Positions 24,666 through 64,000 of a DNA stretch of 64,000 nucleotides are shown in pieces. Within the stretch, counting starts at the first letter, position 1. Each line of letters begins with the position of its first letter. The notes beneath the pieces are model-generated. The model was not told where the DNA came from and did no database searches. It saw only the letters and a program-made list of their open reading frames with translations. The DNA lies in the NCBI GenBank assembly GCA_036874045.1, contig CM072344.1, forward strand, positions 4,002,501 through 4,066,500. The letters run 5' to 3'. Made by a program: the position numbers and the translations under genes. This stretch comes from Cymodocea nodosa (taxonomy: Eukaryota; Streptophyta; Magnoliopsida; Alismatales; Cymodoceaceae).

Positions 24666-25030
24666 GAAGTTAAATTAACAGAATTTAACAAAGAAAATAG
24701 AAGAGTTATCATTAAATCAAAAGCTAGTAGAAAAGAATGCAAACATTAATAATTTAGATATTATTTATGCTAGAAACCAAAAAGATAAATTTGGAAATTC
24801 TTATAACCCTAATTGGAGAAATCACCCGAATTTATCTTGGAGAAACAACAATTTCCAGGGAGGAGAAAATATAAATGACAAAAATATAAGTTATGAAGCA
24901 TTAATTGAACAAGGATCTAGAATAAAGAAATTAGAAAAGATAATCCAACAATGAAACAATCGTCTAGATCTTGTATTTGGAAATGCTGCAATTCAAAATC
25001 AAAATATGAATAGAAATATACCTCCTAGAT
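24666..25030 (+). pseudogene. FBX-2 gag remnant
   Basis: Sequence encoding NPNWRNHPNLSWRNNNFQGG and a coiled-coil-like tail matches the end of FBX-1 gag (48780-49085). The NP.WRNHPN.SW motif is a known hallmark of Athila gag proteins. A few breaks. Confidence 0.8.
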
Positions 25031-25232
25031 AGAAGGAATCAATGGAAGTTTGACCTACTAGAGGATTGCCAATGTAAGCAGTACCTAGCCCTTTCAACAA
25101 AACTGTAAATGAAATTGATACCTCTTATGGGTGGGAAGCTGAATGAAGTAGTAGAACTGAAGTAACTATGTAGAATATAAAATATATAAAAAAATATAAA
25201 ATGAAAAAATGTAAGTTTAATTATAGTTAGTA

Positions 25233-25366: not shown

Positions 25367-26508
25367 ATGGAATTGATGAAATTACCACTAGATGCACTAA
25401 GGGAAGTACTAAGCAACCTATCAACTAAAGATCTGTGCAGATTGTGTTGTGTATCAAAGGAAATCAAAGACTGTGTCAAAGAAAAATATTTTCATGGACT
25501 ACAAGCAGCAAAAATGATTAACATTAGAAATGGATTTTTATGGAAGTCATTTAATCGTAGTTCAATTAGCTATGAATATCTGAATATGGAAGAAACTACT
25601 GGAATTCCACCTAATACATTAGAAGGAATAGATCATATTATGGGGATAAATGAAGGATTAATTATTTACAGAACCAAACCAAGGTATGCAATTTTGTTAC
25701 CCGACATTTTGATTAGAAATCCTATCACAAGAGAAGAATGGAATATAGAAAGGCCTAATATATGTGAAGTACCAACTGAAAATTGTGGGTTAGCATTAAT
25801 TTTTTCTGATTAAAATTTGACCTTTCTTGAAAAATTGTATTACTGGAAACAAACTGGAAATTGGGATGAAGAGTTATGCTTAAGTGTATATAATTTTCTA
25901 AATAGATCTTGGATTGAAAATACTATGATTTATTTAAGACAGAAAGCATTAATTAACAACATGCATGTCATACTTGATGGATATATATATTTAGTCATAA
26001 ATATATCAGTTGCATTTAGATCTAATTTATACATAGTAAGCATAGACAGTTTTGATGATGACTTTATAGAAATATTACCTATACCAAGTGATATAGCTAA
26101 ACCAGCGTCTTCAGAATATGATAAAATTCAATTAGGAATGTGGTATAATGAATATGATGATCCTACTTTATGTCTGATAAAATGGTGGGATGAATTGAGG
26201 AAATTTCAAATATGGATTATGAAAGACCTAAATGAATGGAAGTGGGAAGAGGAATATATTGAAATAGATGTAGAAATAGAAACAACTACATTATCGTGGA
26301 ACAGAAGAGGATCCCTTTCTGCATTTCATTTCATTAATGGAAATACACTTATATTTAGTATTGATAACATACTGCAAATTTAGAAGTTAAAAAGAAAAAT
26401 GGACTACATTAAAACAGAATTAATAGCAAGAAGAATTATGCCTAAAAAGTTTGCATGGACTAACATGTTTATTCCATTTCTTACCACTTTTCAATCATGT
26501 TCTTAAAG
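25367..26508 (+). pseudogene. F-box/FBA protein cargo of FBX-2
   Basis: The start is the ATG at 25367 (MELMKLPLDALREVLSNL), chosen because it matches the start in FBX-1 and lies 12 bases after an acceptor-like TATAG. Residues about 5-45 form an F-box (LSTKDLCRLCCVSKEIKDCV), which binds SKP1 in SCF ubiquitin ligases. The rest resembles an FBA-type substrate-recognition region: ILIRNPITREEWNI, LYIVSIDSFDDDFIEILPIP and KFQIWIMKDLNEWKWEEEY. Length (about 380 residues) is normal for plant F-box/FBA proteins. It is about three quarters identical in protein to the FBX-1 cargo over the first half. It carries about two breaks. A host origin is inferred from the domain pair. Confidence 0.82.
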
Positions 26509-27354
26509 TGTGATTTTGTACTTTTAATGTTGTGTGTATTTTGCATTTATTTTTAGAAAAAAAAGAAGAAAGGAAAAATTTTAGTTTTAGTTTTATTTTA
26601 TAAAAAAGAAAAAGAAAAAGAAAAAAAATATCAATCCAGTTTGTTGGTATCTATTCTGGAAAACCAACTAGCTTGCTTGTGAGTCACCAAAGGCATAGGA
26701 GCCTAGGTTCCACACAAGACACAAATTTAACAAGTTAAGTTGTTATTTTGTTATATATTTTGCTTGTATGTGTCAATGAAAAGTTTTTCAGAATAAAAAT
26801 CAGAAGATATGGAAGGAGATACAAAAGAACAAGGTATGTAATTGATTACTTATCCTGAATTTACATTTAAACTCAGTTCATAGAGTTATTCATTAACTCA
26901 ACAAATTAAGTTCATTGAGTTAGGTGCTAAGTCAACGAAACAATATTCATGCCTGCTACAATTACTATAAAATCTTTTACATTGAGGACAATGCAAAATG
27001 TATGTATGGGGGGAGGTAATTAGATTAACATCCATGTAATTTTGATAACTAAAGGAATTAGAATGGTACTGCAAAGTTCTATAGAAATTGAAAATTTTTT
27101 TTTATGAATTTGCTGTAACTATCCGATAATTGAAACTGTAAACTTTTTAAGAACTGTAATTGCTTGAATGTTATATTTATAATCTTATATAAGATGCTAC
27201 AAAATTTTACTATTCATAAAAATCTAGATATAGTATCTTATGTTTTTGTTGAATTTTATGAGTTTAACAATTTCACGACTTTAAAAAGAAAACAAAATGT
27301 TTAACTAAAACTCAGTAAATTATCTGAAATCTTGGAAGAGTTGAAATGTTGATT
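26509..27354 (+). other. FBX-2 region after F-box, with central polypurine tract
   Basis: No ORF. A second hairpin module lies at 26872-26941 and is absent at the equivalent place in FBX-1. At 26978-27016 come CATTGAGGACAATGC and GTATGGGGGGAGGTAATT, a pair known from Tat/Athila elements just after the coding region, acting as a second polypurine tract. Flanks match 46590-47350 in reverse. Confidence 0.65.
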
Positions 27355-28190
27355 TTTTGGATTAAATGACATACATATGATCAAGGATACATTTAATTTG
27401 ATTGATTAAACTTGTAGAACGATTTATGTGTAGAGTTTATTAAACTACAGAAAAAGTATGAGCTTATTGACATAGATTCATATTTTCAGTAGATAATAGA
27501 AGTAAAACCATATGAGATTTGTATTTTATGGCATTTGTATTAATGAAATACATACATATACTGTGTTGAAAAAAAAAAAAAAAAAAACTTTGAGAGTTTA
27601 TTGACTTGTTTGATCATAAGTCTTTTGTACTTAAGCAGATAGGTATGTAAGGATTGTTGACCTAAAAAAGGACTCTTTAAATTTGGCAACCTAAGGTCCT
27701 GATCAGATTTGGGATTGTTGAATGAAAGCTCGATACATGGGTACACTAGAAAGCTCTTGTAAGATTAAAGCTTTTCAAATTAATTTTTAATGTACAAATA
27801 TGCATATACTGTTCTGAAAAGATAAAAGTGTTTTGTGAAATACAGATATCTTTTGAATCAAGTATATTTTCTATTATCTAAGATTGTTGAAGTATGAATC
27901 TAGAATAGACTTTGAAGTTGTTTATCTAAGATACAATTCATTATTCTACTTGTCTTAATCATATTGAATTGGATTGTACTTTGATTCGTATGTAATTGAA
28001 ATTTATTATAGAAATCATATTGGAAAATTCAAGATAATAGATGTTGAAAAGAAGAAATGATAATATAATTAACACCTATGTGATGCTGATATATTTTGTA
28101 TGTAATTTACATATGTTTTAAATATATTTGCAAGTTGAAGAGGAAAAATAAAGTTAAAACAGATTACTGAAAAATATAGAATATCTATAT
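27355..28190 (+). other. FBX-2 spacer shared with copia S2
   Basis: Related to S2 15300-16160 and to FBX-1 45750-46580 (reverse). The best kept core is 27585-27790. An A-run at 27569-27586 has a counterpart T-run in FBX-1 near 46330, so it belongs to the spacer and is not an inserted tail. Confidence 0.65.
28186..28190. other. Target-site duplication TATAT, left of S1-A
   Basis: TATAT here and at 37808-37812 flank the TG...CA ends of S1-A exactly, and FBX sequence continues on both sides. Confidence 0.9.
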
Positions 28191-33260: not shown

Positions 33261-34379
33261 ATCCCTACATAAATGTAGTGTAAAGAATCTATGGCGTACT
33301 TAAACTGAGTTGTCAAGCCCTTCAATAAATTTGGCTTTAAAAGGTCAAATAGCTTACTTAAAAAGGATGTTAAGTCTTAAATAGATTTGAGTCTCTCTAA
33401 ATATATATATATATATTTTAAATATGAATTAAATACAGAAAGAAGTAGTAGATTTAATAATTTAGACTTTCTGGCTTTTATCTTATTCAGTTTACAAAAG
33501 ATAATTCATAAAGATATACCTTCAGGAACTTAAAAGAATTCAATATTGAGTACACAAACTTAAGACAATAAATATCGTACATTATGTGTAAAGAGTAGAT
33601 AATAACAAGAAAAAAATAAAGATTATATGCACAGATTATGGTAGGATTGTTATAACACATTGAAAGATAAATTAAGCTTGAGTACATTGCCCCTTTTTTG
33701 TTTTTGTTTTTATTTTTTTTGTTTATATTCATATATATATATTATGCATTACCTCCCACAATATCATCATTTTACGTGACCACAATCCCTTGTTTAAGGG
33801 AAAGATAACCAGTTACTCAATGACAAGTGAGAACAGGTAATAATTTTTTTTATTTTAAATATAATCTAAATTACTTGCAAAATGAGTTTTCAGTCAGCAC
33901 ATCCCAAACCAGTTGGTTTAAGTGACTAGGGTTTAAGATCCCCCAACGGACTTAATTACTCAAGTAATTGCAGATAAAAACAAACAAAAAATAAAACAAG
34001 ACAGTAAATTAAAATAGAGGCAACCGCAAGACTTAATTTTTCTAACAGAATGTTAATAACTTTCCTTTAATAAAAAGTACATACTTTCTATGCATTTTCC
34101 TGTTCAAATCTCTGTAATAGCATATACATAAGTAACAAAAATATAGTTGGCACTCACATTGAATTAATTTAAATTTCCTTAAGTAATCTTTTCTGAATTT
34201 TTCTTAAATAAATTGACATCAATAAAAATCACAATTTCATAAATTCTTAACTACTAGAGAACTGTAATTCGAAAATAGATTTTTTTTAATAGACTTTAAT
34301 AATACTACCAAAAAGCCATTACAAGAGTAATCGTTCTTAACCTACAAAACAGTCAAAAAAAGATTTTATCTCTTGAAAC
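33261..34379 (-). other. S1-A spacer
   Basis: No ORF. It matches 8690-9724 of S1-B in reverse and contains the counterpart of the conserved core (about 33880-33960). It joins gag-derived sequence at about 34260-34380. Confidence 0.6.
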
Positions 34380-36362
34380 CCATTTTTGAGTGGGTCCAAG
34401 AATTTTAGAGAGTCATATCAAAATAATCTATATTTTTAGACTTCAACTTATCTATTTTCTGATAATTATCTTTTCGTTTCCTTCTCTTAGTGTTATAATT
34501 ATCAGAACATTTATCTCTATGTAAACTAGAGTTGAAATTTTCATTTCTAACATTATTTGATTTCCAATATCCGATATTCTTTAAATATGAAGAAAATTGA
34601 TCAAGAATATTAAGATTCTCAAATGACTTAGCTTGATTTTTCTGAAAGTTTCTTTTGACAATCTTGCATCGTGTGCTATCATTTATATGCTACATTTTAT
34701 CAACTTGCACATATTTTTCTCCCTTTTTAATTACACATGGAATAGTTTTTCTCTTACTATTCTTAGTACTGGAAATAAAGACATTATTTTTAGCAGTACC
34801 ATTATGCAATATATAATTTTCAGAAGATGCATCGTGTAAACCAATACCCTGTTTTTCTATATTTGATATTTTACTACTAAGTTCATTTGTTATAGTTTGA
34901 CTATTATTCCATTTACTTAATATAGCCTTTTGATCGTAGATCTTAATCTTTAGCATATCAATTTCTAAATTTAAATCAGTAATAGTCAGTTCTAGTTTTT
35001 CAATTTCACAGATCATTTTCTTCTTATCAGCAATTAAATTTTCACAATTAGTATGCAATTTTCTTTCTAGTACAGTAAACTTTAAAATTTCTTATGCTTG
35101 CCTTTGATTTTCTTCTTTAAATTTATTCAATGTAGAGTTTAGAAAATCAACCTTATTTTCAGATTCATCTAGCATTTTCCTAGTGTCCTTTCCTTCTATT
35201 TTTACATTCTTATATTTTCTGGCTAGTCTATTGTATTCAATAAGTAATCCATCAAACCTATCAAAGTTAGCATTTTGATTAGAGGATACCTCACTGGATT
35301 TTGCCATGAAGCATATATTTGCCAGATTTTCTTCTGAATCTGATGTTGATGAGGATTCATTGTCTGATGTTGAATCCTTTGTTTCTTCACTTTGTGAAGC
35401 TGAAAAGTAATCCCATGTCACTTTAAGCGCCCTTCTCTTTCTAATTTTCTTACTCCTAAAATTCCTCCTCGAATTCTTCTTATCTTTGTTGAGCGGACAA
35501 TTAGTTTGAAAGTGACCCGGTCTATTGCACTTGTAGCATATGATTTTGTCTTTCGTGAATGACTTCTTCTCCATATCTCTAGATGTCTTTGCTAACCTGA
35601 AGTTCCTACGTTTCTTCAACAGATTTCTAAATTTTTTGGTCAACAACAATAAATCATCGTTAGAATCACTAGTGACTTCTGAGACTTTATCAGCCTCAAA
35701 AGCGAGATTTCTTCTAGGATTTTTCCCTTTTGGATCTAAATGTTGTACTTCATAGGCTGTCAGATTTCCTATGAGATCATCAAGAGTATACGTATTAAAA
35801 TGTTTGGACTCTTCAATAGATGTTGTCTTTTGAGCCCAAATTTTAGTTAAAGATCTAAGGATCTTTCTTACCAAGTCTTTTTCCTCGAATTTCTTGCCTA
35901 AGATTTTAATGAATTTACAATCTCAAGAAAACGAGAAAACATGTCAGAGATACATTCATTTTTGTGCATTTTAAAAAGCTCATATTTATGTACTAACATA
36001 TTAATCTTAGATTCCTTGACCTGGTTAGTACCTTCGTTGGCAACTTCTAATGCATGTCATATCTCATATGTAGTTTGATATGCAGAAACTTTATTAAATT
36101 GATCATGAGATAAAGCACAAAACAAGATGTTTAAACCTTTAGCATTCAGTGTCATTCGCTCCTTTTCATTAAAAGTCCAAGTATCATATGGAGTCGTAAC
36201 TAACACTATAGGATTGCTAATTATATGCCATAATTTAAAATCGATTGACTGAAAGAATACTTTCATCCTATATTTTCAGTAGCCATAATTGCTACCTTTG
36301 AACATAGGAGGACGATTAGTGGTCTGTCCTTTAGTCATAACTAAGATTTCAGTATTATTCAT
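34380..36362 (-). pseudogene. S1-A gag fossil
   Basis: It starts at 36362 with MNNTEILVMTKGQTTNRPP. The capsid-like part includes FFQSIDFKLWHIIS and LIGNLTAYEVQHLDPKGKNP, the CCHC knuckle CYKCNRPGHFQTNC lies near 35500-35545, and a long coiled-coil tail (Lys/Glu/Asn-rich) covers 34690-35330. Same gag type as S1-C and S1-D, and related to S2 gag. About four breaks. Confidence 0.85.
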
Positions 36363-36561
36363 TTTAAATAGATAATCCTAAGAAAATGATAGGAAAAACC
36401 GATTCCTAAATAGAGAAATAAAAGCTCTTAATTATGATAATAATGCTTTGATATCAGTTGGAGCAAAGCGTCTGTAAATCTGACAAAAATAAGTGAAAAA
36501 CTGCTTTGATACCAGTTGTAGCAGAGCGTAGTAAATATGACAAAAATAAGTTCAAAACAGC

Positions 36562-36571
36562 TTTGATACTA
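36562..36571 (-). other. Primer-binding site, initiator tRNA-Met type (S1-A)
   Basis: On the minus strand, TAGTATCAAAGCTG follows the LTR end ...CCTACA by two bases. It is a slightly decayed form of TGGTATCAGAGC. Confidence 0.7.
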
Positions 36572-36573
36572 GT

Positions 36574-37807
36574 TGTAGGATTGTCTGTATCACAAAAGGG
36601 GGGTGAATTGTGTCTTTAGTAATTAAATACTAGTAGATAAAACAAGAGCATAAAACATTCGTAAATGAAATTCTATTCTTTTATTTCAAGACAGAATTTA
36701 CAATATCTTTTCAGCTTAATTCCCTTCTTGACGGTTTTGATACAGTAATGTTCGATATACAATTCGAATATAACAATAAAGCTCTTATTGAAAATTAATT
36801 TCAAATTGTATAAAACCTGATCTTTCTTTGTCTTTGCTCAGCTTCTGTATCTCTTCTTCTCCAGTTGTGGAATTTCCAGACTTCTTACGTTTGCAACTCC
36901 TTTTCTGAAATTGCTTGGAATTTCGAACTTTTGATGTTGGAGAATTTTTCAGAATATGAATATTCAAACTTAACTTTTCAATTGGGGATCCAGATTGAAT
37001 ATTCAGACTTGGTTTTTGAGATTGAGATCCTCTATGGTAATGTAGCTCGTACTCTTTATTAGTAGTCGAACTCTGTTGTCTTTCACCTTCAGCATGTTCA
37101 TCCACTTGATCCACAATCCATAATCCATAATCTATGTACTAATTTTCTCTTTAATCCAAATTACTTTCTATTTTAATTTCCACTTTCTCCACTAACATTT
37201 TGAATTTCCACGATCTCCACTTCATTGATTCATCGAAGCTTTATCTTCCTCGAGTCTTGTAGAATATCTTCTAAGTCTTCGATTTAGTCGAACATTTATC
37301 CTTTAAGTCCTGTAAAAACTCGAACACTTATCTTTTAACTCTTCAAGTTTTTGCACCTGCAAAACACGTGACTAAACAAAGAAACTTATCTGTTTGTTAG
37401 TCCTTTTATAAAACTCGAATAATTATCTATCCATGCATATAAAAACTCGAACAATTATCTAACTATTCGATTTTTCATTACCGAACGCACATGGAAAACA
37501 CGTGACAACTTAAAACATTAAAAACACACGTGCAGATAACTTAACTATACCAGTTTTTAATATAAAGTATTCGACAAAAATGAAACGTAAACTATCCGAA
37601 AGTTTAACTATTTGAAACATTAACTATCTGAAAGTTTAACTATTGCAAATCTAGCTCTTCAGAAATCTTTAATTTATTCAACATAAAAATGAAACATTTC
37701 GATTATCTATTAACTATTATACTTAGAGAAATATGCTTAGAGAATATTATGTAGACTTATTTAAAAATGTTAATAAAGCATATATCATCAAAATTAAATT
37801 CCTAACA
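36574..37807 (-). repeat. S1-A 5' LTR (1,234 bp)
   Basis: TG...CA ends, paired with 28191-29420. The right duplication TATAT (37808-37812) follows. Confidence 0.92.
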
Positions 37808-37812
37808 TATAT

Positions 37813-37935
37813 AGTAGTCTAATTTATGTATTCTAAAGAAGAACGGATTGAAGAATTAATTCTAGCACTTTAGAAAGACCAACTAGTTAGATCTTAGTTT
37901 ACTAAGGGACTAGTAAAATTTAAGTATGGGGGAAG
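37813..37935 (+). other. FBX-2 spacer end and 3' polypurine tract
   Basis: FBX sequence resumes after S1-A and runs to TATGGGGGAAG (37925-37935), which abuts the LTR start. The same tract appears reversed at 45620-45630 in FBX-1. Confidence 0.8.
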
Positions 37936-39924
37936 TGTTTAGAATGAAAAGGTGCATAATATTAAGGGTTAAATGATGGTTAATTGCATAATATTTAGCT
38001 TATCATATGAGAATTAAGCCATTATGTCATAATTGCATTGTTATATGCTTTAATGAAGGAATCTACATAATTTCAGGAAATTAATGTTAATTAAGTACAT
38101 TTCTGAACTGTCGGTAAATTGTAGGTTGTGAAATTCTTAAGTATCCGAATTTTCTGTTATTTCAGAGAGTTATGTTTAATGTACTGGATAGTTATGTTTT
38201 AAATGCTTAAAGAATATTTTATTATTTCCTGGAGTACACGTGTTGTAACCATAATGCATGACTTAAGTGAATGTTCAGTAAGTTATCTGTTAACTATTCG
38301 AAATGCATATGAGCATCAGATAGTTAAGGTCGTAAGTATCCGAATATCTGAACTCGTTAAGTTAGAATTATGCACGTGTTGAATTTAAATGCTTTAGTAT
38401 ATCACGTGAGATGCACATGTTTAACTTGTTAAGTTAGCATAACTGTACGTGTTGAGTTACATGAATACACACTAAGGTAATGCGTTATGTTAGCAGCTTA
38501 TTTCTTTATTGCATGTGTTTTATAGTTAAATCAATGAAGTAAGTCTGTTGAGTTATCTGTAACTCCATAGACCATTTATTTTCTAATATACCATTGTAGC
38601 AGTTACAGAAATAGGACATTTAAAGGAAAACAACGATTGCACGTATCATGTAGGAATTCACTCATGGAAGGAAGAAGAAATCACCATCGTTGATATGAAT
38701 GAAGGAAATCCAATCGATCATCTAAGTAGAAGTAGTTACTACTGAAAGAAATATAAAAGAAGAGGAGAAGGACGAAGAAGGGGTGTGTGGAGGACCACAC
38801 TAACTAGAGGCAGCGTCGGAAGTTCCTTGAAGCTCCACACCACCACCAAAACCACCACCATAATGACTAACCATCAGAGGTCTGTGAGGATACTTTCTTG
38901 ATGTCAGGTCGATTTCGAGCCAAACACGGTGCTTGACAACCACTATGAGGAGTGATCGCATTACAGGAAGGGAAGCCATTTTCACCAAGCACCAACTCAT
39001 ATCTCAAGAGATCGTAAAGCTTTTAGCCTTGGTTTCGGGTTGATGCCAGTATGCTGAAGAGGAGATCATCTTGTAATTTTGGACTCGTGATTCTATAGGG
39101 AGAGGAGGCAAGATTGTAAGTGATTATGTTTTCAGTGGTGTAATCACGTCGCATGTAGTGACGGAAGTATTTATTGTTGATAGAGATTTTTACATTTCAC
39201 CTTTCATTCATCTTCAAGAATATATCAAAACAAAAATACCAAAAACAACAAATTATCTATGTTTACATTTAGTATTTAAGTGTTATATCGTTTGTTTGGT
39301 ATCGTGATTAATGTTACCATTGTCAGTATTGTGAGTGTTTTATGTTTGTTTGATATAGAAAATAGAAAATAGTTTTACAATTTACTGAAATAGATTTGTT
39401 TTAGATACTTAACGATTTTAATGATTACTGTTTGAAATAATTGAATGTTAGTGTTGCTTAATGATAAATCTAATATTGACTAACATTGAAGAGCTTAATT
39501 GATGTTATTTACAATCTATGGAACCACCGAATGGTTGGCCGAATTCCTCTGTAAATAGCAATATTTAACTAGAAAGATAGGCTTGTGGAGTTAACTTAAG
39601 TCCACAAGGTTAGTCTGTTGAGTTAGTCATAACTCCACGAAGTAGGTCCGTTGTGTTAACTGTAACTCAACGGAGTACTTAGCTGAACACATAAACTCCA
39701 ATATAAAAATCGAAATAGTACACAGTTCTTACACAATCTCTATGGGATTGACTTGGACTTGCACACAAATACAATATACACTATGCACTTGCAGTTAAAA
39801 TACAAATTGGAATTAATATCTAATTTGTGTGAAAGGTTATTAGTTTACTTCTAAAAGTAATTATTGAGATAAGCATAAAGACAAATTAAACAAGTAAAAA
39901 TAGAAGTTAACAAAACCCTAAACA
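37936..39924 (+). repeat. FBX-2 3' LTR (1,989 bp)
   Basis: Starts TGTTTAGAATGAAAAGG and ends CCCTAAACA. U3 holds CGGATAGTTA/CGAATAGTTA-type motifs; TATAAAAG is at 38752-38759; a more GC-rich leader block lies at about 38790-39060; a GTAAGT donor-like site at about 39116; three hairpin modules at 39588-39685. It is joined to S1-C gag leader sequence. Open frames on the minus strand at 38800-39000 are antisense shadows. Confidence 0.87.
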
Positions 39925-39939
39925 GATCATCTATTTAAA

Positions 39940-42426
39940 ATGGATAATACTGAAATCTTAGTTATGACTGAAGGACAGACCACTAATCATCCTCCTATAT
40001 TCGAAGGTAGCAATTATGGCTATTAGAAATATAGGACGAAATTATTCTTTCAGTCAATTGATTTCAAACTATAGCATAAAATTAGCAATCCTATAGTGTT
40101 AATTACGACTCCATATGATACTTTGACTTTTGATGAAAAGGAGTGAATGACACTGAATGCTAAAGGTTTAAACATCTTGTCTTGTGCTTTATCTCATGAT
40201 CAATTTAACAAAGTTTCTACATATCAAACTGCATATGAGATATGGCATGCATTAGAAGTTGCCAACGAAGGTACTAACTAGGTCAAGGAATCTAAGATTA
40301 ATATGTTAGTACATAAATATGAGATTTTTAAAATGCACGAAAATGAATGTATCTTTGATATGTTTTCCCGTTTTCTTGAGATTGTAAATTCATTAAAATC
40401 TTTAGACAAGAAATTCGAGGAAAAAGACTTGGTAAGAAAGATTCTTAGATCTTTAACTAAAATTTGGGCTCAAAAAACATCTATTGAAGAGTCTAAATAT
40501 TTAAATACATATACTCTTGATGATGTCATAGGCAATCTGACAACTTATGAAGTACAACATTTAGTTCCAAAAGGGAAGAATCCTAGAAGGGATTTGGCTT
40601 TTGAGGCTGTTAAAGTCTCAAAAATCACTAGTGATTCTGACGACAATTTACTGTTGTTGACCAGAAAATTTAGAAATCTGTTGAAGAAACACAGGAATTT
40701 TAGGTCAGCAAAGACATCTGGAGATGTGGAGAAGAAGTCATTCATCAAAGACTATCATATGCTACAAGTGCAACAGGCTAGGTCACTTTCAAACTGATTG
40801 TCCTCACAACAAAGATAAGAAGAATTCGAGGAAGAATTTAAGGAATAAGAAATTCACAAAGAGAAGGGCACTTAAAGTGACATGGGATGACTCTTCAGCT
40901 TCACAGAGTGAAGAAGCAAAAGATTCAACTTCAGATAATGAATCCTCATCAACATCAGATTTAGAAGAAAATCTAGCAAATGTATGCTTCATGGCAAAAT
41001 CCAGTGAGGTACACAAATCAAAATGGATAATGGATAGTGGAGCATCCAGCCACATGACTAGAGATATACGATTACTTACAGAAGTAACAAAAACCAAGAA
41101 CGAACAAGTTACCTTTGGAAATAAAAGCAAAACAAATATCCTTGGGTTTAGCAAGGTTCAGGTAACTGAAAATTGTTTTATAAATGATGTCTTATTAGTG
41201 GAAAACTTAGGTTTTAATTTATTGAGTGTTCCTGTTTTTGTGAAGTTTTATAGAGTAAATTTTGAAAAAGATTCCTGTAAAATTATGGACATGTCTACAA
41301 ACGAAATTTTATTCACTGCATACAAGAAATGATCCGTTTGTATTTTGAAATTGCCTTCTGATATTATTAAAGACAATGCTTGCTTAATTGCAAAATCGGA
41401 TGAAATTATTTTATGGCATAGAAGGCAAGGACACTCAAACTTAAAATTATTACAAAAGCTATCTAAATAGAATCTAGTTAGAGGTTTACTTAGTATTAAG
41501 TACTCAAAAGAGTTTATGTGTGATGCATGTCAACTAGGTAAATTACATAAAACATCCTTTAAAAGTTTAAATGAAATAACAAGCAAAAGAGTATTAGAAC
41601 TAGTGCATATGGATTTATTTGGACCTACTAGGACAACTAGTCTAGGAGGTAAACATTATGCTTTTGTAATAGTTGATGACTATTCTAGGTTTACTTGGGT
41701 TTATTTTCTAGCTAATAAAATTGAGTTTTTTGAAATATTTAAGATATTCTGTAATAAAGTTCAGAATGAGCAAAATGTAAAAATTCAAAAACTTAGGAGT
41801 GATCACGGTACAGAATTTGATAATGATCAAATGGACTCCTTTTGTGAAGAATTAGACATCGATCATAGATACTCATTTCCAAGAGCTCATTCACAAAATG
41901 GAATAGTAGAACGTAAAAATAGATCACTTCAGGAAATGTCCAGAACCATGTTAAATGAAAATAAGTTACCCCTCTCTTTGGGTAGAAACAGTTCATACAG
42001 CATGTTATGTTATAAATAGAATACATCTAAGACCAATTTTGAATAAAACTCCTAATGAGATATTGTATAATAGGGTTCCCAAAATAAGTTATTTAAAACC
42101 CTTTGGTTATAAGTGTTTTATTTTAAACACCAAGGAATGTAGAGATAAATTTAGAGCCAAATCAGATGTGGGTATTTTTGTTGGTTATTCCATTAGAAGT
42201 AAGGCATATAGAGTATATAACAAATCAACAAAAACCATTGAGGAAACTCTACATGTGAAATTTCATGAAAATTCTCATTTAGATTTTAGACATGTTGAAA
42301 ATTTTGATTCAAAAATTCTCCTAGAAATGGTACCAAATGAAGTTGACTGAGAAATTGAGAGATTATCTGATGGAACAAGAAATATAAATTTAAATGACGA
42401 AGATTTAGAAGAAAATAATGTCATAC
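39940..42426 (+). pseudogene. S1-C gag, protease and integrase fossil
   Basis: It opens MDNTEILVMTEGQTTNHPP, continues through gag with a CCHC knuckle near 40757 (CYKCNRLGHFQTDC), then the protease KWIMDSGASSHMTRD near 41030 and the integrase zinc and core region (CDACQLGKLHKTSFKSL, LVHMDLFGPTR, FVIVDDYSRFTWVYF, RSDHGTEFDN) to about 42350. The RT part is not present. Very close to S1-B in the shared part. About seven breaks. Confidence 0.88.
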
Positions 42427-43726: not shown

Positions 43727-45619
43727 TGTTTAGGTTTTCCCAACACTACACTAGAAAAACTTGGATTTGTTACTTCTATTTCTACTTAGTTAATTTATCT
43801 TTATGCCTATTCTTTCTTTTAGAAGTAAACAAACAACCTTTAATACAATTTAGATATTAATTCTAATTTGTACTTTAACTGCAAGTGCACAGTGTCTATT
43901 GTATCAGTGTGCAAGTACAAGTCGATCCCACAGGGAATTACTGACGAATTTAAGAAATGTTTGATTGTGAACAATACAAATTTATATTCAATAAGCACTC
44001 CGTTGAGTTATAGTTAACTCAATGGACTAAGTTCGTTGAGTTATGGCTAACTCAACGGACTATCCTTGTGGACTTAAGTTAACTCCACGAGCATGTCTCT
44101 TCTTTATAATACTGTTATTTACAGAAGAATTCGGCCAACCATTGGGTGATTCCACAGATTGTAAATAACATCAATTAAGCTTTTTAATGCTAGTTAACAT
44201 TGGATTTATCATTAAGCAATACTAACATTTAGATGATTCAAACAGTCACCATTAAAATCTTTAAGTTTTTTGTACAAACCAATTGCAGTAAACTGTAAAA
44301 TTAAAACTAACATAAAACAATCATAAAACTAATACAGATAACATTAATCACGATACAACACAAACAATACAACACTCAAATACAACATACAAACAAAGAT
44401 AAATTGTTTTTGGTATTTTTGTTTTTGATGTAATGGGCGAAAGGTGAAATGTAAAGTAATCTCACTTGACAGTAAATACTTCCGACACTACTTGCAATGC
44501 GATTACACCACTGAAAATTAAACCACTTACAATTCTGTCTCCTCTCCCTATAGAATCGCAAGTCCAGAATTGCAAGATGATCTCCTCTTCAGCATATAGG
44601 CATCAACCCGAAGCCAAGGCTAAAAGCTTTACGATCTCCTGAAATATGAGTCGGCGCTTGGTGAAAATGGCTTCCCTTCCCACGATGCGATCACTCCTCA
44701 CAGTGGTTGTCAAGCACTATGTTTGGCTCGGAATCGACTCGACATCAGGTAAGTATCCTCACAGACCTCCGATGATTGGTGATTATGGTGGTGATACGAT
44801 GGTTGGTGTGATACTTCGGAGAATCGTCGATATTGTCTGCAGAAAGCTTGGTGCTCCTCCTTTGTATACACTGGCCGTCCATCGATCACACACACTTCTT
44901 TTTTTCTTCTTTTCTTTTATATTTCTTCAGTAGTAACTACTTCTGCTTGAATGGTTGGTTGGATTTCCTTCCTTCAGATCAACGGCGATGATTTCTTTCT
45001 CCCTACGCGATTGAATTCTTGTGTGATACGTGCAAATGTAGTTTTTCCTTCCAACTGTCTGTTCCTGCAACCGGTATAGTGGCATTTTAGAAAATATATA
45101 GTCTGTGGAGTTACAGATAACTCAACGGACTTTCTTCGTTGATTTAACTATAAAACACGTGCAAAAAATAACAACTTAAGTTTATAACGCTAACCTAATG
45201 TGTTGCCTTAATGTTCAATATAGCAACTCAACGTGTACAGTTATGCTAACTTAACGAGTTATAACTTAAGTAAATCTACCAAATCTCAACACGTGTACAT
45301 CTGGAAATAAAATATTCTCTTTAAACATAATTGTTCAGCAATTTAAACATAACTATCTGATACATATTCGGTCTGTTAAACATAACTGTCCGAAATATCA
45401 GAAAATTCGGATACTTAAGAATTTCACAGCTTGCAACTTACCGACAGTTCATAAATGTACTAAATTAACATTAATTCCCCAAAATTAAGCAGATTCTTTA
45501 ATTAAAGCATATAACAGTGCAATTATAACATAATGGCTTAATTCTCATATGATAAGCTAAATATTATGCAATTAACCATCATTTAATCGTTAATAATATG
45601 CACTTTTTCATTCTAAAAA
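43727..45619 (-). repeat. FBX-1 3' LTR (1,893 bp)
   Basis: About 96.8% identical to the 5' LTR by hand count. TATAAAAG on the minus strand at 44914-44921; hairpin modules at 43990-44092. Plus-strand open frames at 44646-44933 are antisense shadows. Confidence 0.92.
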
Positions 45620-45630
45620 CTTCCCCCATA
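45620..45630 (-). other. FBX-1 3' polypurine tract
   Basis: On the minus strand, TATGGGGGAAG abuts the 3' LTR. Confidence 0.85.
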
Positions 45631-46916
45631 CCTAAATTTTGCTAGTCCCTTAGCAAATTATGATCTAATTAATTGGTCTTTCAAAAAGTGCTAGAATTAA
45701 TTCTTCCCCTTTTGGTTTTTTTCTTCTATTTAGCATAAACATATATTCTGTATGTTTTAGTAATCAACCTGCAAAGATATTTAAAATATATGTAAATTAC
45801 ATACAAAGTATATCATCTTCATATAGGTGTTAATTATATTATCGTTTGCTCTTCTTTTCATCATTTGTAATCCTGAATTTTCCAATAAGTTTTCTAGAAG
45901 AAATTTCAACAACATACGAATCAAAATACAATCCAATTCAATCTGATTAAGACAAGTAGAATAAAGAATTGTATTTCCATTAAAACAACTTCAAAAGTCA
46001 ATTCCAGATTCATATTTCAACAATTCTAGATAACAGAAAATATACTTGATTCAAAAGATATCTGTATTTCACAAAACACTTGTATCTTTTCATAACAGTA
46101 TATGTTGTTTTTTTTTTTTTTTGCACTTTAAAAGTTAATTTGACAAACTTGAATCATACAAGAGCTTTCTAATGTACCCATGTAACGAGCTTTCAATCAA
46201 CAATCCCAGATCTGATCAGGATCTTAAGTTGCCAGATTTTCAAAGTCCTTTTTCAGGTCAACAATCCTTACATACCTATTTGCTCAAGTACAAAAGGCTC
46301 GTGATCAAACAAGTCAATAAACTCTCAAAGTTTTTTTTTTTTTTTAAATAAATGCACACACAAAACAAAACATAAATCACATAGTGTATATGCACGTATT
46401 TCATTAATACAGATGTAGTAAAACACCAATCTCATATAATCCTGCTTCTATCATTTACTAAAAATATGAATCCATAACAATAAGCTCATACTTTATCTGT
46501 AGTTTAATAAGATATACACATAAATCATTCTACAAGTTCAATCAATCAAAGCAAATGTATATTTCATCATATGTGTTTCATTTAATCTAGAATTCACATC
46601 TCAGCTCCTTCAGGACTTTAGATAATTTTCTGATTAAGCATTAAATATTCTGATTTCATTTTAAAATCATAAAACTGTTAAACTCATGAAATTCAGAAAA
46701 ATCATAAGATACTATATCTAGATTTACATAAATAATAAATTCTATAGCATCTTCTATAGCCTTCTAAATATAACATTCAAGCAGTTTATAAAAATTTTAC
46801 AGTCTCAATTATCGGATAGTTACAGCAAGTTCATAAAAATTTTCAATTTCCTCAAAACTTTGCAGTACCATTTTAATTCCTTTAATTAAAAAACTTACAT
46901 GGCTGTTACTTTAATT
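45631..46916 (-). other. FBX-1 spacer shared with copia S2
   Basis: Noncoding. About 45750-46580 is related to S2 15300-16160 and FBX-2 27355-28190. The core (46120-46335) keeps GGCAACTTAAGATCCTGATC and GCAAATAGGTATGTAAGGAT on the minus strand. T-runs at 46108-46123 and 46330-46343 are length-variable. Confidence 0.65.
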
Positions 46917-46962
46917 ACCTCCCCCCCATACGTACATTTTGCATTGTCCTCAATGTAAAAGA
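46917..46962 (-). other. FBX-1 central polypurine tract region
   Basis: On the minus strand, ACATTGAGGACAATGC is followed by TACGTATGGGGGGGAGGTAA. The pair is a known Tat/Athila signature after the coding region. Confidence 0.65.
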
Positions 46963-47359
46963 TTTGACAATAAGTACAGTAATTGTAGCAAGCATGAATA
47001 AAGTTTTGTTTGATTTAAAATTCAAGATAAGTAATTGGTTGCATACCTTGTTCCCTTTGTATCTCTTTCTGCATATTCCAATTTTTGATTCTGAAAAACT
47101 TTTCATTCCCAGATAAATACAGAATATAAAACAAAATAACATTTAACAGATATTAATAAATCAGTGTCTTGTGTGGAACCCAGGCTTCTATGCCTTTGGT
47201 GGCTCACAAGCAAGCCAGTTGGTTTCCCAAAACAGATACCAACAAATTGGATTTATATTTTGTTTTGTTTGTTTTTTTTATAAAATGAACATGAAAAACT
47301 TCAAAATTCCTTTTTTTTTTTCTTTCTAAAAATAAATGCAGAATGCACAACATTAAACA

Positions 47360-48512
47360 CACAAAATCACAGCTTAAGAACATGATTGAAAAGTAGAAAC
47401 AAATGGAATAAATGTATCAGTCCAAACAAACTTTTAGGCATAGTTCTTCTTGCTATTAATTCTGTTTTAATGCAGTTCTTGTTCCTTTTTAATTTGTAAA
47501 CATGCAATATATTATAAATTCCAAATACGAGTGTATTACCATTAATGATATGTAATGCAGAAAGGGATCCTTTTTGGTTCCAGGGTAATGTAGCAGTTTC
47601 TATTTCTACATCTATTTCAATATACTCCTCTTCCCACTTCCATTCATTCATGTCTTCCATAATCCATATTTGAAATTTCATCAGTTCATCCCACCATCTT
47701 ATCAGACATAAAGTAGGATCATCTTCTTCATTATACCACATTCCTATTTGAATTTCATTAAATTCTGTAGATGGTGGTTTAGCTATTTCACTCGGTACAG
47801 GTAAAATTTCTATATAATCATCATAACTATCTATGCTCACTATGTATAAATCAGATCTATATGCAAATGATATCTTCGTGACTAAATAGATATAACCATC
47901 AAGTATGACATGTGTTTAGTTAATTAATGATTTCTGTCCTAGATATATAATAATGTTTTCATTCCAAGATCTGTTCAGAAAATTATACACACTTAAGCGT
48001 AAATCTTCACCCCAATTTCTTGTAGGTCTCCAATAATATAATTTTTCAGGAATTGCAGAATTTTTATCAGAAAATATTAAAGTTGACCCACAATTTTCAA
48101 TTTGTACTTCAAATATATTAGGTCTTCCTATATTCCATTCTTCTCCTGTTATAGGATTTCTTATCAAAATATCAAGTAATGATAAACTTGCATACCTTGG
48201 TCTCGTCTTGTATATGATTAATCCTTCATCTATCCCCATAATATGACTCATTCCTTCTAATGCATTAGGTGGAATTCCAGTAGTTTCTTCCATAGCCAGA
48301 TATTCATGGGTATTTGAACTACGATTAAATGACCTCCATATGAATCCATCTCTAATCTTAGTCATTTTTGTAGCTTGTAGTCCCTGAAAATATTTTTCTT
48401 CAATACAATCTTTAATTTCCTTTGATACACAACACAGCCTGCACAGATCTTTAGCTAACAAGTTACTTAGTATTTCCCTTTGTGCATCCAACGGTAATTG
48501 CATTAATTCCAT
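47360..48512 (-). pseudogene. F-box/FBA protein cargo of FBX-1
   Basis: Starts at 48512 with MELMQLPLDAQREILSNL. The F-box occupies about residues 5-45 (KDLCRLCCVSKEIKDCIEEK). The FBA-like part shows ILIRNPITGEEWNIGRP, LYYWRPTRNWGEDLRLSVY, EILPVPSEIAKPPS, LCLIRWWDELMKFQIWIME and KWEEEYIEIDVEIE. It is the best preserved ORF in the element, with about one or two breaks. In plants such proteins select substrates for SCF ubiquitin ligases; here it sits in the 3' position where some Athila elements have an envelope-like ORF. A strong acceptor-like site (TTTTGTTTTATTTTACAG) ends nine bases before the ATG, and a hairpin module lies just upstream. Confidence 0.85.
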
Positions 48513-48521
48513 TTGTCGATT

Positions 48522-48540
48522 CTGTAAAATAAAAACAAAA
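48522..48540 (-). promoter_or_regulatory. Splice-acceptor-like tract before F-box (FBX-1)
   Basis: Minus strand TTTTGTTTTATTTTACAG, U-rich and ending in CAG, precedes AATCGACAAATGG. FBX-2 has a similar tract ending TATAG at 25355. Conserved placement suggests a spliced cargo mRNA. Confidence 0.55.
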
Positions 48541-48581
48541 ATTTAGCAGAGACAAAAATTAACATAACTACTGCACACCCT

Positions 48582-48645
48582 CGTGGAGTTAAGGTATAAC
48601 TCAACGGACTAAGTTCGTTGAGTTAAAAATTAACTCTACGATACT
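48582..48645 (-). promoter_or_regulatory. Hairpin module upstream of F-box (FBX-1)
   Basis: On the plus strand it reads CTCGTGGAGTTAAGGTATAA, CTCAACGGACTAAGTTCGTT and GAGTTAAAAATTAACTCTAC in succession, i.e. two paired-arm units. Same place as in FBX-2. Confidence 0.55.
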
Positions 48646-48779
48646 ATTAACTTAAAATAAAACATATATACATACAGATAGTTGCTTCAGATATGCTGCT
48701 TCATTCAGTTGCCCTCCCAGAAGAGGTATCAATTTCATTAACCGTTCTATTGATAGGATTAGGTATAGCTTGTATTGGC

Positions 48780-49985
48780 AATCCTCCAGTAGGTCTAACT
48801 TCCATTGGTTCCTTCTATCTAAGTGATATATTTCTATTCTGATTTTGATTTGCAGCATTTCCAAATATAAATTCAAGACGATTGTTTACTTGTTGGATTA
48901 TCTTTTCTAATTTCTCTATTCTAGCTCCTTGTTCAATTAATACTTCATAACTTATGTTCTTTTCATTTATATTTTCTCCTCCCTGGAAATTGTTGTTTCT
49001 CCAAGATAAATTCGGGTGATTTCTCCAATTAGGATTATAAAAATTTCCCAAGTTATCTCTCTAGTTTCTAGCATAAATAATATCTAAGTCATTTATGTTT
49101 GTATTCTTTTCTGCTAGCTTTTAATTTAATGATAACTCTTCTATTTTCTTTGTTAATTCATTTAATTTTACCTCAAGCATAGTATTAGAATCTATTTCAT
49201 GCATTCCTCTTGGCAATAATTTTTTATCTGCAATAGCTTCAGCCAAATTTTCCCACTGTGCAGTTCTTTTTGCAAAATTTTCTAAATATGCCCATGCTTC
49301 TTCACTAAATAATTTTAAAAATCCATTTTGACAAGTAGATTCTAATAAAGATTTCGTTGAAACATCTATGCCTTCATAAATTATGCCTATTAATTGTGCT
49401 TTACTCATTGCATGATGTGGACATTGAGTTAGTAAATCTTTAAATCTTTCAAAATATTTCCAGAATGATTCACCCTGTTTTTGGCTACACATTAATATTT
49501 CTTTCTTCTTTTTAATCGTTTGATGTGTTGGATAGTATTTTTCCAGAAAAACAGAGCAAAATTCAGTTCATGTAGAAATTGAATCAGGCGACAAAGTATA
49601 TAACCATCTCTTAGCTGTATCTTTTAAAGCAAAAGTGATATATCTAAGTTTAATAGCATCTATACTCATGTTCGGCATTCTCATCATTTGACAAACTTCG
49701 TTAAATTCTCTAAGGAAATAATAGGCATACTCTCTTTCTAATCCATGAAAATGTGGCAATTGACTAATATAATTAAATTTCAGTTCAAACCTATCTCCCT
49801 CAAAGTTTGGCAATCGAATACATGAAGGTTCATCAATTAATTCAGGATACAGAATCTCTCCTAATGGTTTTTCTACTGGAGCAGCCATCTCTACGTTCTC
49901 TTTTAAAGAAAGGTTAGCTACACCCCAAAGAATTTCATTAAAGTTCAGTATAGAAAATTTTTCAGTACTCCTCTGCAATGAAAAT
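48780..49985 (-). pseudogene. FBX-1 gag fossil (Athila type)
   Basis: From the N-terminus: IRLPNFEGDRFELKFNYIS, EYAYYFLREFNEVCQMM and LRYITFALKDTAKRWLYTL (retrotransposon gag domain, about 49570-49980), QGESFWKYFERFKDLLTQCP (about 49490-49430), a charged helical part, and NPNWRNHPNLSWRNNNFQGG near 49010-49045, an Athila hallmark. A coiled-coil-like tail ends it. It would form the particle. About three breaks. Confidence 0.87.
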
Positions 49986-50883
49986 TTCTAGGTAGGTGTT
50001 CTTACTAATCATTTAGTGCTTAGAGAACGAGTTCATGTGCTCATAAATAAATAATAGAAGATTAATTACATACCAGTCTGAAGCTTTCCATTCTATAAAT
50101 ATTTGTTGTTGGATGAAGTTGAATCAGCTGCTTCTCCTTCCAGTTCCTCCAACGCTTTCTCCTTTCTTTTAAAAGTACAGGTAACTCGTAAATAACATTC
50201 TGTTTCATATATATATTGCGCATCCATAAAGTGAATAAATCTTGTTGCAAGAACGTGTCTTGCAACGTGCATCGTGGTTCCTATTTTTATGGGTACGTAT
50301 ACCACTACTAATTTCAAATTTTGGTAACCGCTAAACCGACGAAGTTTCGTTTGTGGTTAAAAGAATAACCGTTCTGCTTAATCCATGAACTAACCTCGTT
50401 GAGTTACAGATTACTAAACAGAACACAGTCGGTTACTGTTGCTAACTCCACGGACTAACTTCGTTGAGTTACAGATAACTCAACGGAGTGACCTTATATT
50501 ATATTACTGACCTCGTGGAGTTACGGTTCACTCAACGGACTTACTTCGTTGAGTTAACACTTGGCAACTTCTAAGTTTCACTCTCATACGTTTTCTATTC
50601 TATTTTTTTTTTTATTACCGGATTAACCGATACTATCTTCGGTCAGACCTAAATATTTTTTATTTTTATTTTTATTTTTTTTTACTTTTCTTTCGGTTGG
50701 ATCGATACTATGTTTCGGTTAAACCAATATTTTTTTTTGAAAATTAATATACAATTTTTTTTAATGTTCCGATCATACCGATGGATCCAATCGGTTGAAC
50801 CGCAACTATTTTTATGTTATATATATTTTTTTAATATTTAACTCAATTCAATTCAATTCACTTCGACTCAACTCAATTCAATT
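49986..50883 (-). other. FBX-1 leader between primer site and gag
   Basis: No recognisable protein; short frames near 50062-50317 match nothing I know. Two hairpin clusters lie at 50395-50560 (TTCGTTGAGTTACAGATAAC, CTCAACGGAG, CTCGTGGAGTTACGG). At 50610-50830 there are T-rich runs and degenerate repeats of the form ACCGATACTAT...CGGTT...ACC. Typical of a long structured gypsy leader. Confidence 0.55.
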
Positions 50884-50900
50884 CCCTGGCAACAGCGCCA
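50884..50900 (-). other. Primer-binding site, tRNA-Asp type (FBX-1)
   Basis: Minus strand TGGCGCTGTTGCCAGGG, 8 bases from the LTR; same type as GA-1 and GA-2. Confidence 0.88.
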
Positions 50901-51707
50901 TAAACCATTGTTTGGGTCTTCCCAACACTACACTAGAAAAACTTGGATTTGTTACTTCTATTTTTACTTAGTTAATTTATCTTTATGCCTATTCTTTCTT
51001 TTAGAAGTAAACAAACAACCTTTAATACAATTTAGATATTAATTCTAATTTGTACTTTAACTGCAAGTGCACAGTGTCTATTGTATCAGTGTGCAAGTAC
51101 AAGTCGATCCCACAGGGAATTGCTGACGAATTTAAGAAATGTTTGATTGTGAACAATACAAATTTATATTCAATAAGCACTCCGTTGAGTTACAGTTAAC
51201 TCAATGGACTAGGTTCGTTGAGTTATGGCTAACTCAACGGAATATCCTCGTGGACTTAAGTTAACTCCACGAGCCCGTCTCTTCTTTATAATACTGCTAT
51301 TTACAGAAGAATTCGGCCAACCATTGGGTGATTCCACAGATTGTAAATAACATCAATTAAGCTTTTTAATGCTAGTTAACATTGGATTTATCATTAAGCA
51401 ATACTAACATTTAGATGATTCAAACAGTCACCATTAAAATCTTTAAGTTTTTTTGTACAAACCAATTGCAGTAAACTGTAAAATTAAAACTAACATAAAA
51501 CAATCATAAAACTGATACAGATAACATTAATCACGATATAACACAAACAATACAACACTCAAATACAACATACAAACAAAGATAAATTGTTTTTGGTATT
51601 TTTGTTTTTGATGTAATGGGCGAAAGGTGAAACGTAAAGTAATCTCACTTGACAGTAAATACTTCTGACACTACTTGCAACGCGATTACACCACTGAAAA
51701 TTAAACC

Positions 51708-51713
51708 ACTTAC
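51708..51713 (-). promoter_or_regulatory. Splice-donor-like GTAAGT in FBX-1 5' leader
   Basis: GTAAGT (minus strand, in AATTGTAAGTGG) lies about 360 bases after the expected transcription start. It is kept in GA-1 (3712-3717), GA-2 (near 62699) and FBX-2 (near 39116). Paired with the acceptor at 48522 it would remove gag. Confidence 0.45.
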
Positions 51714-52096
51714 AATTCTGTCTCCTCTCCCTATAGAATCGCGAGTCCAGAATTGCAAGATGATCTCCTCTTCAGCATACAGGCATCAACCCGAAGCCAA
51801 GGCTAAAAGCTTTACGATCTCCTGAAATATGAGTCGGCGCTTGGTGAAAATGGCTTCCCTTCCCATGATGCGATCACTCCTCATAGTGGTTGTCAGGCAC
51901 TGTGTTTGGCTCGGAATCGACTTGACATCAGGTAAGTATCCTTACAGACCTCCGATGATTGGTGATTATGGTGGTGATATGATGGTTGGTGTAATACTTC
52001 GGAGAATTGTCGATATTGTCTACAGAAAGCTTGGTGCTCCTCCTTTGTATACACTGGCCATCCATCGATCACACACACTTCTTTTTTTCTTCTTTT

Positions 52097-52104
52097 CTTT
52101 TATA
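52097..52104 (-). promoter_or_regulatory. TATA box of FBX-1 5' LTR (TATAAAAG)
   Basis: A canonical TATAAAAG preceded by a long U3 with G-box-like CACGTG/CATGTG cores and CGTTGAGTTA-type motifs. Confidence 0.6.
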
Positions 52105-52802
52105 TTTCTTCAGTAGTAACTACTTCTGCTTGGATGGTCGGTTGGATTTCCTTCCTTTAGATCAACGACGATGATTTCTTTCTCCCTGCGCAATTGAATT
52201 CTTGTGTGATATGTGCAAATGTAGTTTTTCCTTCCAACTGTCTGTTCCTGCAACTGCTATAGTGGCATTTTAGAAAATATATAGTCTGTGGAGTTACAGA
52301 TAACTCAATGGACTTTCTTCGTTGATTTAACTATAAAACACATGCAAAAAATAACAACTTAAGTTTATAACGCTAACCTAACGCGTTGCCTTAATGTTCA
52401 ATATAGCAACTCAACGCGTATAGTTATGCTAACTTAACGAGTTATAACTTAAGTAAATCTACCAGATCTCAACATGTGTACATCTGGAAATAAAATATTC
52501 TCTCTAAACATAATTGTTCAGCAATTTAAACATAACTATCTGATACATATTCGGTCTGTTAAACATAACTGTCCGAAATATCAGAAAATTCGGATACTTA
52601 AAAATTTCACACCCTGCAACTTACCGATAGTTCATAAATGTACTAAATTAACATTAATTCCCCAAAATTAAGCAGATTCTTCAATTAAAGCATATAACAA
52701 TGCAATTATAACATAATGACTAAATTCTCATATGATAAGCTAAATATTATGCAATTAACCATCATTGAACTGTTAATAATATGCACTTTTTCATTCTAAA
52801 CA

Positions 52803-53021
52803 GCCATAGAAAAGATTAAAGTCAAAATCTTTCTCTGCAAAGGAACTACAAAAATACTAGGAAGCAAATACACCTGTAATTCGACTGTAGCAATAACAAC
52901 AGGATTGGCAAAATCAATCACAATAGTAATAGCAATAGTCGACACAGTTTTCAGAACAATAGCAACATATAGATACAAATACAGGTATACATAGAGATAC
53001 ACATACAGATACAAATACATA
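52803..53021 (+). pseudogene. S1-C envelope-position ORF fossil, right of FBX-1
   Basis: It starts with the GCCAT duplication and continues S1 sequence equivalent to 22266-22480 (AGAAAAGATTAAAGTC, then the Gln/Thr-rich tail). Broken. Confidence 0.75.
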
Positions 53022-63508: not shown

Positions 63509-63525
63509 TGGCGCCATTGCAGGGG
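63509..63525 (+). other. Primer-binding site, tRNA-Asp type (GA-2)
   Basis: TGGCGCCATTGCAGGGG, 7 bases after the LTR end. Confidence 0.88.
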
Positions 63526-63600
63526 AATTAATATAAGCAACTATTAGAGCTGTTTCGTTTTAATAGCCAGAGTTGTGTGTTTTCTTCTGTGATTGAGAAT

Positions 63601-64000
63601 ATGGCATATGCTTATGCTCAAAGATTTCTAAAACCTGTAGTTGGCATATGAGAATTCTACAATTCTGAAGGTCACGACATTTCTGATTGTTTGAAACTGA
63701 GATGTTTGTAGATGGTTAGATCCCATGAACAACAAATGAATTATCCTCAATATAATAGGGTTGAGTATGAGAATCCTATAGTTTACCCAATTGATGGTCA
63801 GTATAGAATGTGTAATATGTTGAGAGACACTGAAGTTTGGGATAGGTATGACAGATTGGAGCGTAGTATAGAGCAAAACCTGGACAAACTAGAATACTTT
63901 ATGTATAAGCAACAAGAAGTCAATCAATTAAACTATAAGGAAGCATATTCAGAACCTAAAATGGATATAAATTACGAAATTGAAAAAACCATAATGAAAA
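63601..64000 (+). pseudogene. GA-2 zinc-knuckle first ORF fossil (partial)
   Basis: It starts MAYAYAQRFLKPV and continues NSEGHDISDCLKLRC, MVRSHEQQMNY and RDTEVWDRYDRLERSIEQNL, colinear with GA-1 from 2760 leftwards. It runs off the window. Broken more than once. Confidence 0.82.

Follow-up and report, generated by a model that had tools for sequence, protein, structure and literature searches.

Among described plant elements, the group closest to the one reported here is Athila/Calypso/Diaspora. In the available text of the 2005 Diaspora paper, that element carries one gag-pol open reading frame (ORF), and no intron upstream of gag was then known (PMC1142308). Genes beyond gag and pol are covered by a review of additional ORFs, in the available sections of which captured host genes are confined to a single copy or a few, ORFs retained by the majority of copies are of unknown origin and lack host-like relatives, and splicing is reported for the envelope (env) gene of Bagy2 (PMC7264820). 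BARE1 and BARE2 of barley have a spliced gag RNA, and BARE2 lives without gag, according to the portion of the source at hand (PMC3735527). Viral F-box proteins also exist, polerovirus P0 and nanovirus CLINK being named in the accessible part of a further paper (PMC3588083). Here, we describe FBX-1, a long terminal repeat (LTR) retrotransposon in a 64,000-nucleotide stretch of the Cymodocea nodosa genome (the window; contig CM072344.1, positions 4,002,501 to 4,066,500), together with its family. Our reading, to which we assign a probability of roughly 0.7, is that of a large, old Ty3/gypsy family of the Athila lineage, in which an F-box gene is the last gene, has been expressed from a spliced message and would engage the host SKP1-cullin-F-box (SCF) ubiquitin ligase for the element.

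On the minus strand at 43727-52802, FBX-1 forms a complete LTR element, having two LTRs (Kimura two-parameter distance 0.0316), a target-site duplication, a primer binding site and polypurine tracts. Its parts, from the 5' to the 3' end, are as follows.

52803..52807, no strand: target-site duplication GCCAT, high side, sequence read
50909..52802, minus strand: 5' LTR, ends read, 96.9% identity to the other LTR
50883..50900 (read 50900-50883), minus strand: primer binding site, sequence read
50074..50091, minus strand: short coding exon (MESFRL) common to gag and F-box, ATG up to splice donor GTATGT, sequence read
49973..50073, minus strand: intron from the shared exon to gag, GT..AG, one exact joined copy genome-wide, control 0
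48522..50073, minus strand: longer intron removed in the F-box message, with gag inside, donor plus TTTTACAG acceptor, 191 joined genome copies
48700..49972, minus strand: capsid gag, frame broken by stops at gag codons 135, 284 and 304, PF03732 in the L042 counterpart
47364..48512, minus strand: F-box ORF, PF00646 at 1.2e-8
45618..47363, minus strand: noncoding 3' spacer of 1.7 kb holding the polypurine tracts, present after the F-box also in 29/29 other copies
46923-46942, minus strand: internal polypurine tract, sequence read
about 45623-45642, minus strand: polypurine tract near the 3' LTR, sequence read
43727..45617, minus strand: 3' LTR, paired with the 5' LTR at 96.9% identity
43722..43726, no strand: target-site duplication GCCAT, low side, sequence read

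The LTRs, GCCAT duplications, primer site, gag and polypurine tracts had all been proposed by the initial annotation, and each was found when the sequence was read. We take the primer binding site to be of the Athila, tRNA-Asp type. A near-identical site follows the LTR in copies L043 and L044, as in FBX-1, and the Diaspora/Calypso legend, in the available text, fits a tRNA-Asp-type reading (PMC1142308). The gag region has its counterpart in copy L042, where PF03732 was matched at 1.1e-19; pol was not found in the interior of FBX-1. The F-box/FBA ORF of the initial annotation stood in its F-box part, but FBA was below the cut-off and the frame is not open: codon 199 (47916-47918) is a TAA, and one base is deleted close to the 3' end. 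Inverted copies of a short repeat around AACTCAACGA are present in the FBX-1 leader (50380-50562) and at 48581-48641 (minus strand), just before the end of the F-box intron; the LTRs contain it too, near 44042 and 51224, as do 20022-20086 and 10587-10651 in other parts of the window.

The junctions left in genomic copies point to two alternative messages. In FBX-1, the short exon, ATGGAAAGCTTCAGACTG, is followed by GTATGT, gag begins after TTGCAG, and the F-box exon begins after TTTTACAG. Among 29 other copies (L010-L038), fetched as the best-scoring matches by F-box, five had the short exon joined exactly to the F-box exon, with gag gone. Patterns were then counted over the whole source genome (374.6 Mb in 28 contigs), allowing at most 2 mismatches and using reversed sequences as controls: the exon 1-F-box junction occurred 191 times and the intron end followed by the F-box start 1009 times, both with controls of 0. 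The same junction was present in the diverged copy L061, and the predicted exon 1-gag junction had one exact occurrence in the genome (control 0). Since both exact junctions lie in the genome, both messages were once made in cells that passed their insertions on to offspring. In a tree of 31 copies, which was star-like, the spliced copies need four changes, of which well-supported branches force one, and many of the 191 spliced copies may descend from few events. The spliced, gag-less copies are numerous, at 191 places, and by analogy with BARE2 they may form a self-propagating subfamily using gag made by others.

The initial annotation had called for a genome search for copies with the gag-F-box-LTR order, and far more than two were found. 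With the FBX-1 F-box DNA as the query, the best 40 of 4296 first-look candidates were all full length (itself and 39 at 97%). With that of FBX-2, a 5'-truncated fragment elsewhere in the window, the best 40 of 4445 candidates spanned the whole length or nearly so (the query and 39 others at 92-94%), and the two lists had no place in common. A PF00646 search of the genome, in which 150 of 4219 candidates were scored, returned cargo F-box sequences as 11 of the 12 best loci, at about 55-91% amino-acid identity; the remaining locus, L056, is a host-type F-box/beta-propeller gene. The F-box matches of this genome are thus headed by transposon cargo, and automatic F-box gene counts here could be inflated and dominated by transposons.

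The F-box gene travels with its neighbors. The spacer lay 3' of the F-box in all 29 copies, and gag sequence lay 5' of it in 24/24 unspliced copies, over at least 300 bases in 22. Ten of the 11 Pfam-derived cargo loci had gag sequence, and the eleventh, L061, is the spliced form; L055, L058, L053 and L059 are truncated or rearranged, the last two matching over 184 residues only. This adjacency was kept in subfamilies down to about 55% amino-acid identity, and gag and F-box distances were correlated (rho 0.796 over 10 copies and 45 pairs; 0/2000 permutations as high). A count of gap events gave 0 in the F-box and 63 in the spacer in 27/28 pairs, leaving out L011, whose spacer did not align; this count is weak, the copies being chosen by F-box match. 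The F-box is a conserved additional ORF of an LTR element, present in many copies and under selection. The initial annotation had proposed a gene captured once and amplified with its element; a single family with many copies in which the gene travels along under selection agrees with this, but the gene is old and not a recent fragment, and a recent single capture is ruled out by the deep co-divergence with gag.

Selection was evaluated from the ratio of nonsynonymous to synonymous rates (omega). In a pairwise codon model, omega between FBX-1 and FBX-2 was 0.263, with twice the log-likelihood difference from omega 1 at 43.3; a simple count gave 0.333 (bootstrap 0.238-0.478), the medians of neutral simulations being 0.62-0.93. 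Comparisons of the L015 F-box with ten others ranged from 0.105 to 0.594 and were at most 0.30 in 8/10 (L060, 0.406; L061, 0.594; L063, 0.295; FBX-2, 0.287; L057, 0.289; L054, 0.269; L062, 0.223; L052, 0.228; L059, 0.11; L053, 0.105), the values for the very highly divergent L059 and L053 being based on 181 and 178 codons. For gag, omega was 0.155-0.248 in five pairs, 0.397 for FBX-2 (117 codons) and 0.823 for L060. Judged by these codon patterns, the F-box is under purifying selection between subfamilies, much like gag. Codons 1-60 had the lowest omega of three parts of the F-box (0.18). The initial annotation had named a ratio near 1 among cargo copies, with no host F-box relative, as telling against its proposal; between subfamilies, omega was well below 1.

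To place the gene within the whole element, upstream DNA was read for ten copies. Seven of them (C5, C7, C13, L026, L031, L032 and L037) had pol sequence, at least integrase, and in these the order was pol, a repeat-rich leader, exon 1, and then gag with F-box, or F-box alone in C5 and C7. Five of these seven have an ORF region after pol and before the leader, complete in all but L026, where it is partial. L036 had an LTR, a CCHC region, the leader and gag; L039 is rearranged, and L014 has other sequence upstream. The ORF region between pol and gag was placed as follows in two further copies.

L040:1254-4114: ORF region between pol and gag
L042:353-3154: ORF region between pol and gag

In L040, the ORF region matched PF20167 (Putative plant transposon protein) weakly, at 8e-7 and under the cut-off, and L043 had reverse transcriptase, RNase H and integrase zinc domains. 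In 4/4 copies (C5, C7, C13 and L036), the CCHC-protease frame followed the 5' LTR with no capsid gag between, and capsid gag is therefore 3' of pol in those copies; C13 lacks the last 57 bases of its 5' LTR. The arrangement of a Ty3/gypsy Athila element, gag before pol in one frame, was thus not found. Two other elements of the window, at 2876-2093 (within 2876-94, minus strand) and 63525-64000 (plus strand), also have CCHC-protease directly after the LTR, without intervening capsid gag. An order with pol first may extend beyond the elements that carry the F-box.

We assign the family to the Athila lineage of Ty3/gypsy by presumption, FBX-1 itself being without pol. A query with the pol of the family in a protein database that holds plants gave at least 8000 relatives, of which the 120 listed were 54-67% identical; the closest among the matches listed were plant pols. 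FBX-1 looks like a deletion derivative without pol and the ORF region, and internal deletions are common in these copies. Rather than cargo in a small non-autonomous element, the F-box is part of a family in which some copies bear pol, the genes stand in an odd order and the F-box message is spliced. C7, which has both pol and the spliced F-box, is flanked by the target duplication AATAT; a clear duplication was not seen in C5 and C13, so that two of the four copies with ends read have one. LTR divergence, mostly transitions, was 0.032 in FBX-1 and 0.048-0.050 in C5, C7 and C13. At rates of 7e-9 to 1.3e-8 per site and year, the insertions would be about 1.2-3.6 million years old.

The F-box domain expected of an SCF adaptor was found over the cut-off, PF00646 scoring 34.9-44.6 bits against a cut-off of 20.5 in all proteins tested that have that end. 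We infer from the domain that the cargo protein is probably an SCF ubiquitin-ligase adaptor, and from the selection that the F-box benefits the element. The F-box message was made by joining the leader exon MESFRL to the F-box exon across gag, and the spliced form has been copied back into the genome many times. FBX-1, being without pol, would need pol in trans, with pol-bearing copies carrying the F-box too. In the mechanism that we propose, the F-box would bind SKP1 and the C-terminal half a target, turning host ubiquitination to the use of the element; our favored guess for the target is a host restriction or silencing factor. The spliced F-box message and the long-conserved gene suggest that the element uses the host protein-disposal machinery.

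Several observations weigh against this reading. Within the young subfamily, omega was 0.54-0.92 (four pairs computed), and stops interrupted 18/29 young copies, the 11/29 with open frames being an upwardly biased figure from a sample of best-scoring matches. Silent and replacement variants stood in the same ratio among shared (14:42) and single variants (41:127), and therefore selection is not visible inside the young subfamily. Decay after insertion from intact masters fits these data, as does weak constraint. Between FBX-1 and FBX-2, the spacer diverged about as much as the F-box (p 0.15 versus 0.143; 18 versus 4 gap events), so much of the case for selection rests on the codon pattern. The evidence of splicing is historical, as far as genomic junctions can tell. 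The C-terminal half stayed below every Pfam cut-off, FBA_1 scoring 19.5 bits in FBX-2 and 14.5 in L015 against a cut-off of 21.1. A genome search with FBA_1 had 0 matches among 31 candidates and carries no weight, its control being equally without matches. Finally, no host source gene or relative was found: protein database searches with the cargo gave 0/832 candidates at E 1 and 0/3976 at E 10, by a method that needs shared 5-residue words and can miss remote kin, and the search of its own genome was swamped by cargo copies. The host F-box gene L056 has a similar layout to the cargo, without significance (hhalign probability 1.2%), and solved-structure searches gave 0 matches.

As to what the protein would do, one tentative version, which we favor less than even odds would require, holds that a rearranged lineage, with pol first and with gag and F-box as alternative splice products, took up an SCF adaptor long ago as a counter-defense against a silencing or restriction factor. 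Its analogue would be polerovirus P0, thought to act on ARGONAUTE1 in the available part of the source (PMC3588083). Unlikely, though not in conflict with the data, is self-regulation, in which the F-box protein acts on the proteins of the element, for instance by removing gag or pol, limiting insertions or timing particle formation, and not on host defense; gag and the F-box have their first exon in common and the F-box splice leaves gag out, which links the two products in expression, and the two diverge together. That the protein is no SCF adaptor and the domain is kept for another contact, such as that of a chaperone or an env-like protein in the 3' position, would agree with a C-terminal half lacking any domain over the cut-off and with the disputed proteasome dependence of viral F-box proteins such as P0, as the accessible text describes it (PMC3588083). 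The PF00646 scores and the low omega of codons 1-60 make this improbable.

The broken state of most young copies and their high omega are what a captured gene would leave behind if it were a passive passenger, replicated with the element to no benefit. Such a passenger would not stay recognizable at 55% identity beside gag, and omega between subfamilies was 0.10-0.30 in most comparisons, similar to gag; we consider this account very doubtful. It is scarcely credible that the junction copies are chance deletions and not products of spliced RNA, common as internal deletions are in these copies, since the same exact GT..AG joint with a control of 0 recurs in 191 copies and in L061, and a second exact joint exists for gag; deletion in place of splicing was rejected on these exact boundaries and controls. 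Plants have large F-box families, which would allow host genes near transposons. That the loci are merely such genes, or a segmental duplication, we regard as negligible in probability, as FBX-1 and C7 have the F-box enclosed by LTRs with target duplications, and on many contigs it has the same gag on one side and the same spacer on the other. Segmental duplication was rejected on these duplications and contigs, and the alternative stated in the initial annotation, two copies with shared flanks, fell with it, there being many copies and target duplications in 2/4 with ends read. The reading of an old family whose spliced F-box gene would engage SCF for the element is the one that we retain.

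The other family member in the window, FBX-2, is a fragment with an insertion ahead of its LTR, and consists of the following parts.

24666..25166, plus strand: end of capsid gag, 87% to FBX-1
25367..26516, plus strand: F-box ORF interrupted by stops (codons 150 and 339), PF00646 at 2.9e-11, 85% DNA identity to FBX-1
26523..28138, plus strand: 3' spacer, 79% to FBX-1
28139-37849: insertion between the spacer parts
37850..39917, plus strand: spacer end and LTR, beyond the insertion

The order of gag end, F-box, spacer and LTR given for FBX-2 in the initial annotation is present, but in a fragment, and the insertion precedes the LTR. The F-box proteins of FBX-1 and FBX-2 are 74-77% identical, close to the three quarters first estimated, but along the whole length and not over the first half alone. 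The element inserted in FBX-2 (28190-37807) has terminal repeats at 28190-29420 and 36573-37807 that are 94.3% identical, and an ORF at 30177-30923 (minus strand) matches PF20167 at 0.0021. Elsewhere in the window, 5565-6985 and 41009-42426 are 93% alike and contain integrase- and polymerase-like ORFs, presumably of copia appearance.

Set beside the known systems, as far as the available portions of the sources extend, the family resembles Athila, Calypso and Diaspora in the kinship of its gag and pol, the PF03732 capsid, the tRNA-Asp-type primer site and the long region 3' of pol; unlike in Diaspora, the frame with CCHC, protease and reverse transcriptase follows the 5' LTR, capsid gag is 3' of pol, and the F-box gene is last (PMC1142308). 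As with BARE, there is spliced RNA, and there are gag-less copies that may rely on others, whereas splicing here would choose between gag and the F-box protein (PMC3735527). Like Bs1 and the rice and sorghum captures, it has a cellular-type coding sequence inside an LTR element, but those are gene fragments or single chimeras, and the term F-box has 0 occurrences in the available text of the transduction review (PMC13317346). The likeness to P0 and CLINK is that of a parasite with its own F-box protein, which could use the host SCF machinery; the carrier here is a retrotransposon (PMC3588083). Searches of open-licence PubMed Central full text turned up no retrotransposon with a conserved F-box gene, no gag 3' of pol and no counterpart of the splicing scheme or gene order. 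We file the FBX family under LTR retrotransposons that have a conserved extra gene; what sets it apart is which gene this is, how many copies of it there are, how it is spliced and in what order the genes lie. With this family, one can test whether plant retrotransposons turn the ubiquitin system of the host against defense. With additional ORFs and env-like genes it shares an extra sense gene near the 3' LTR in many copies, and it differs from the ORFs of the review, in its accessible sections, by a host-type F-box in a great many copies (PMC7264820). It looks like a member of both classes of that review, with a regulatory gene of cellular type that the element has long kept as one of its own.

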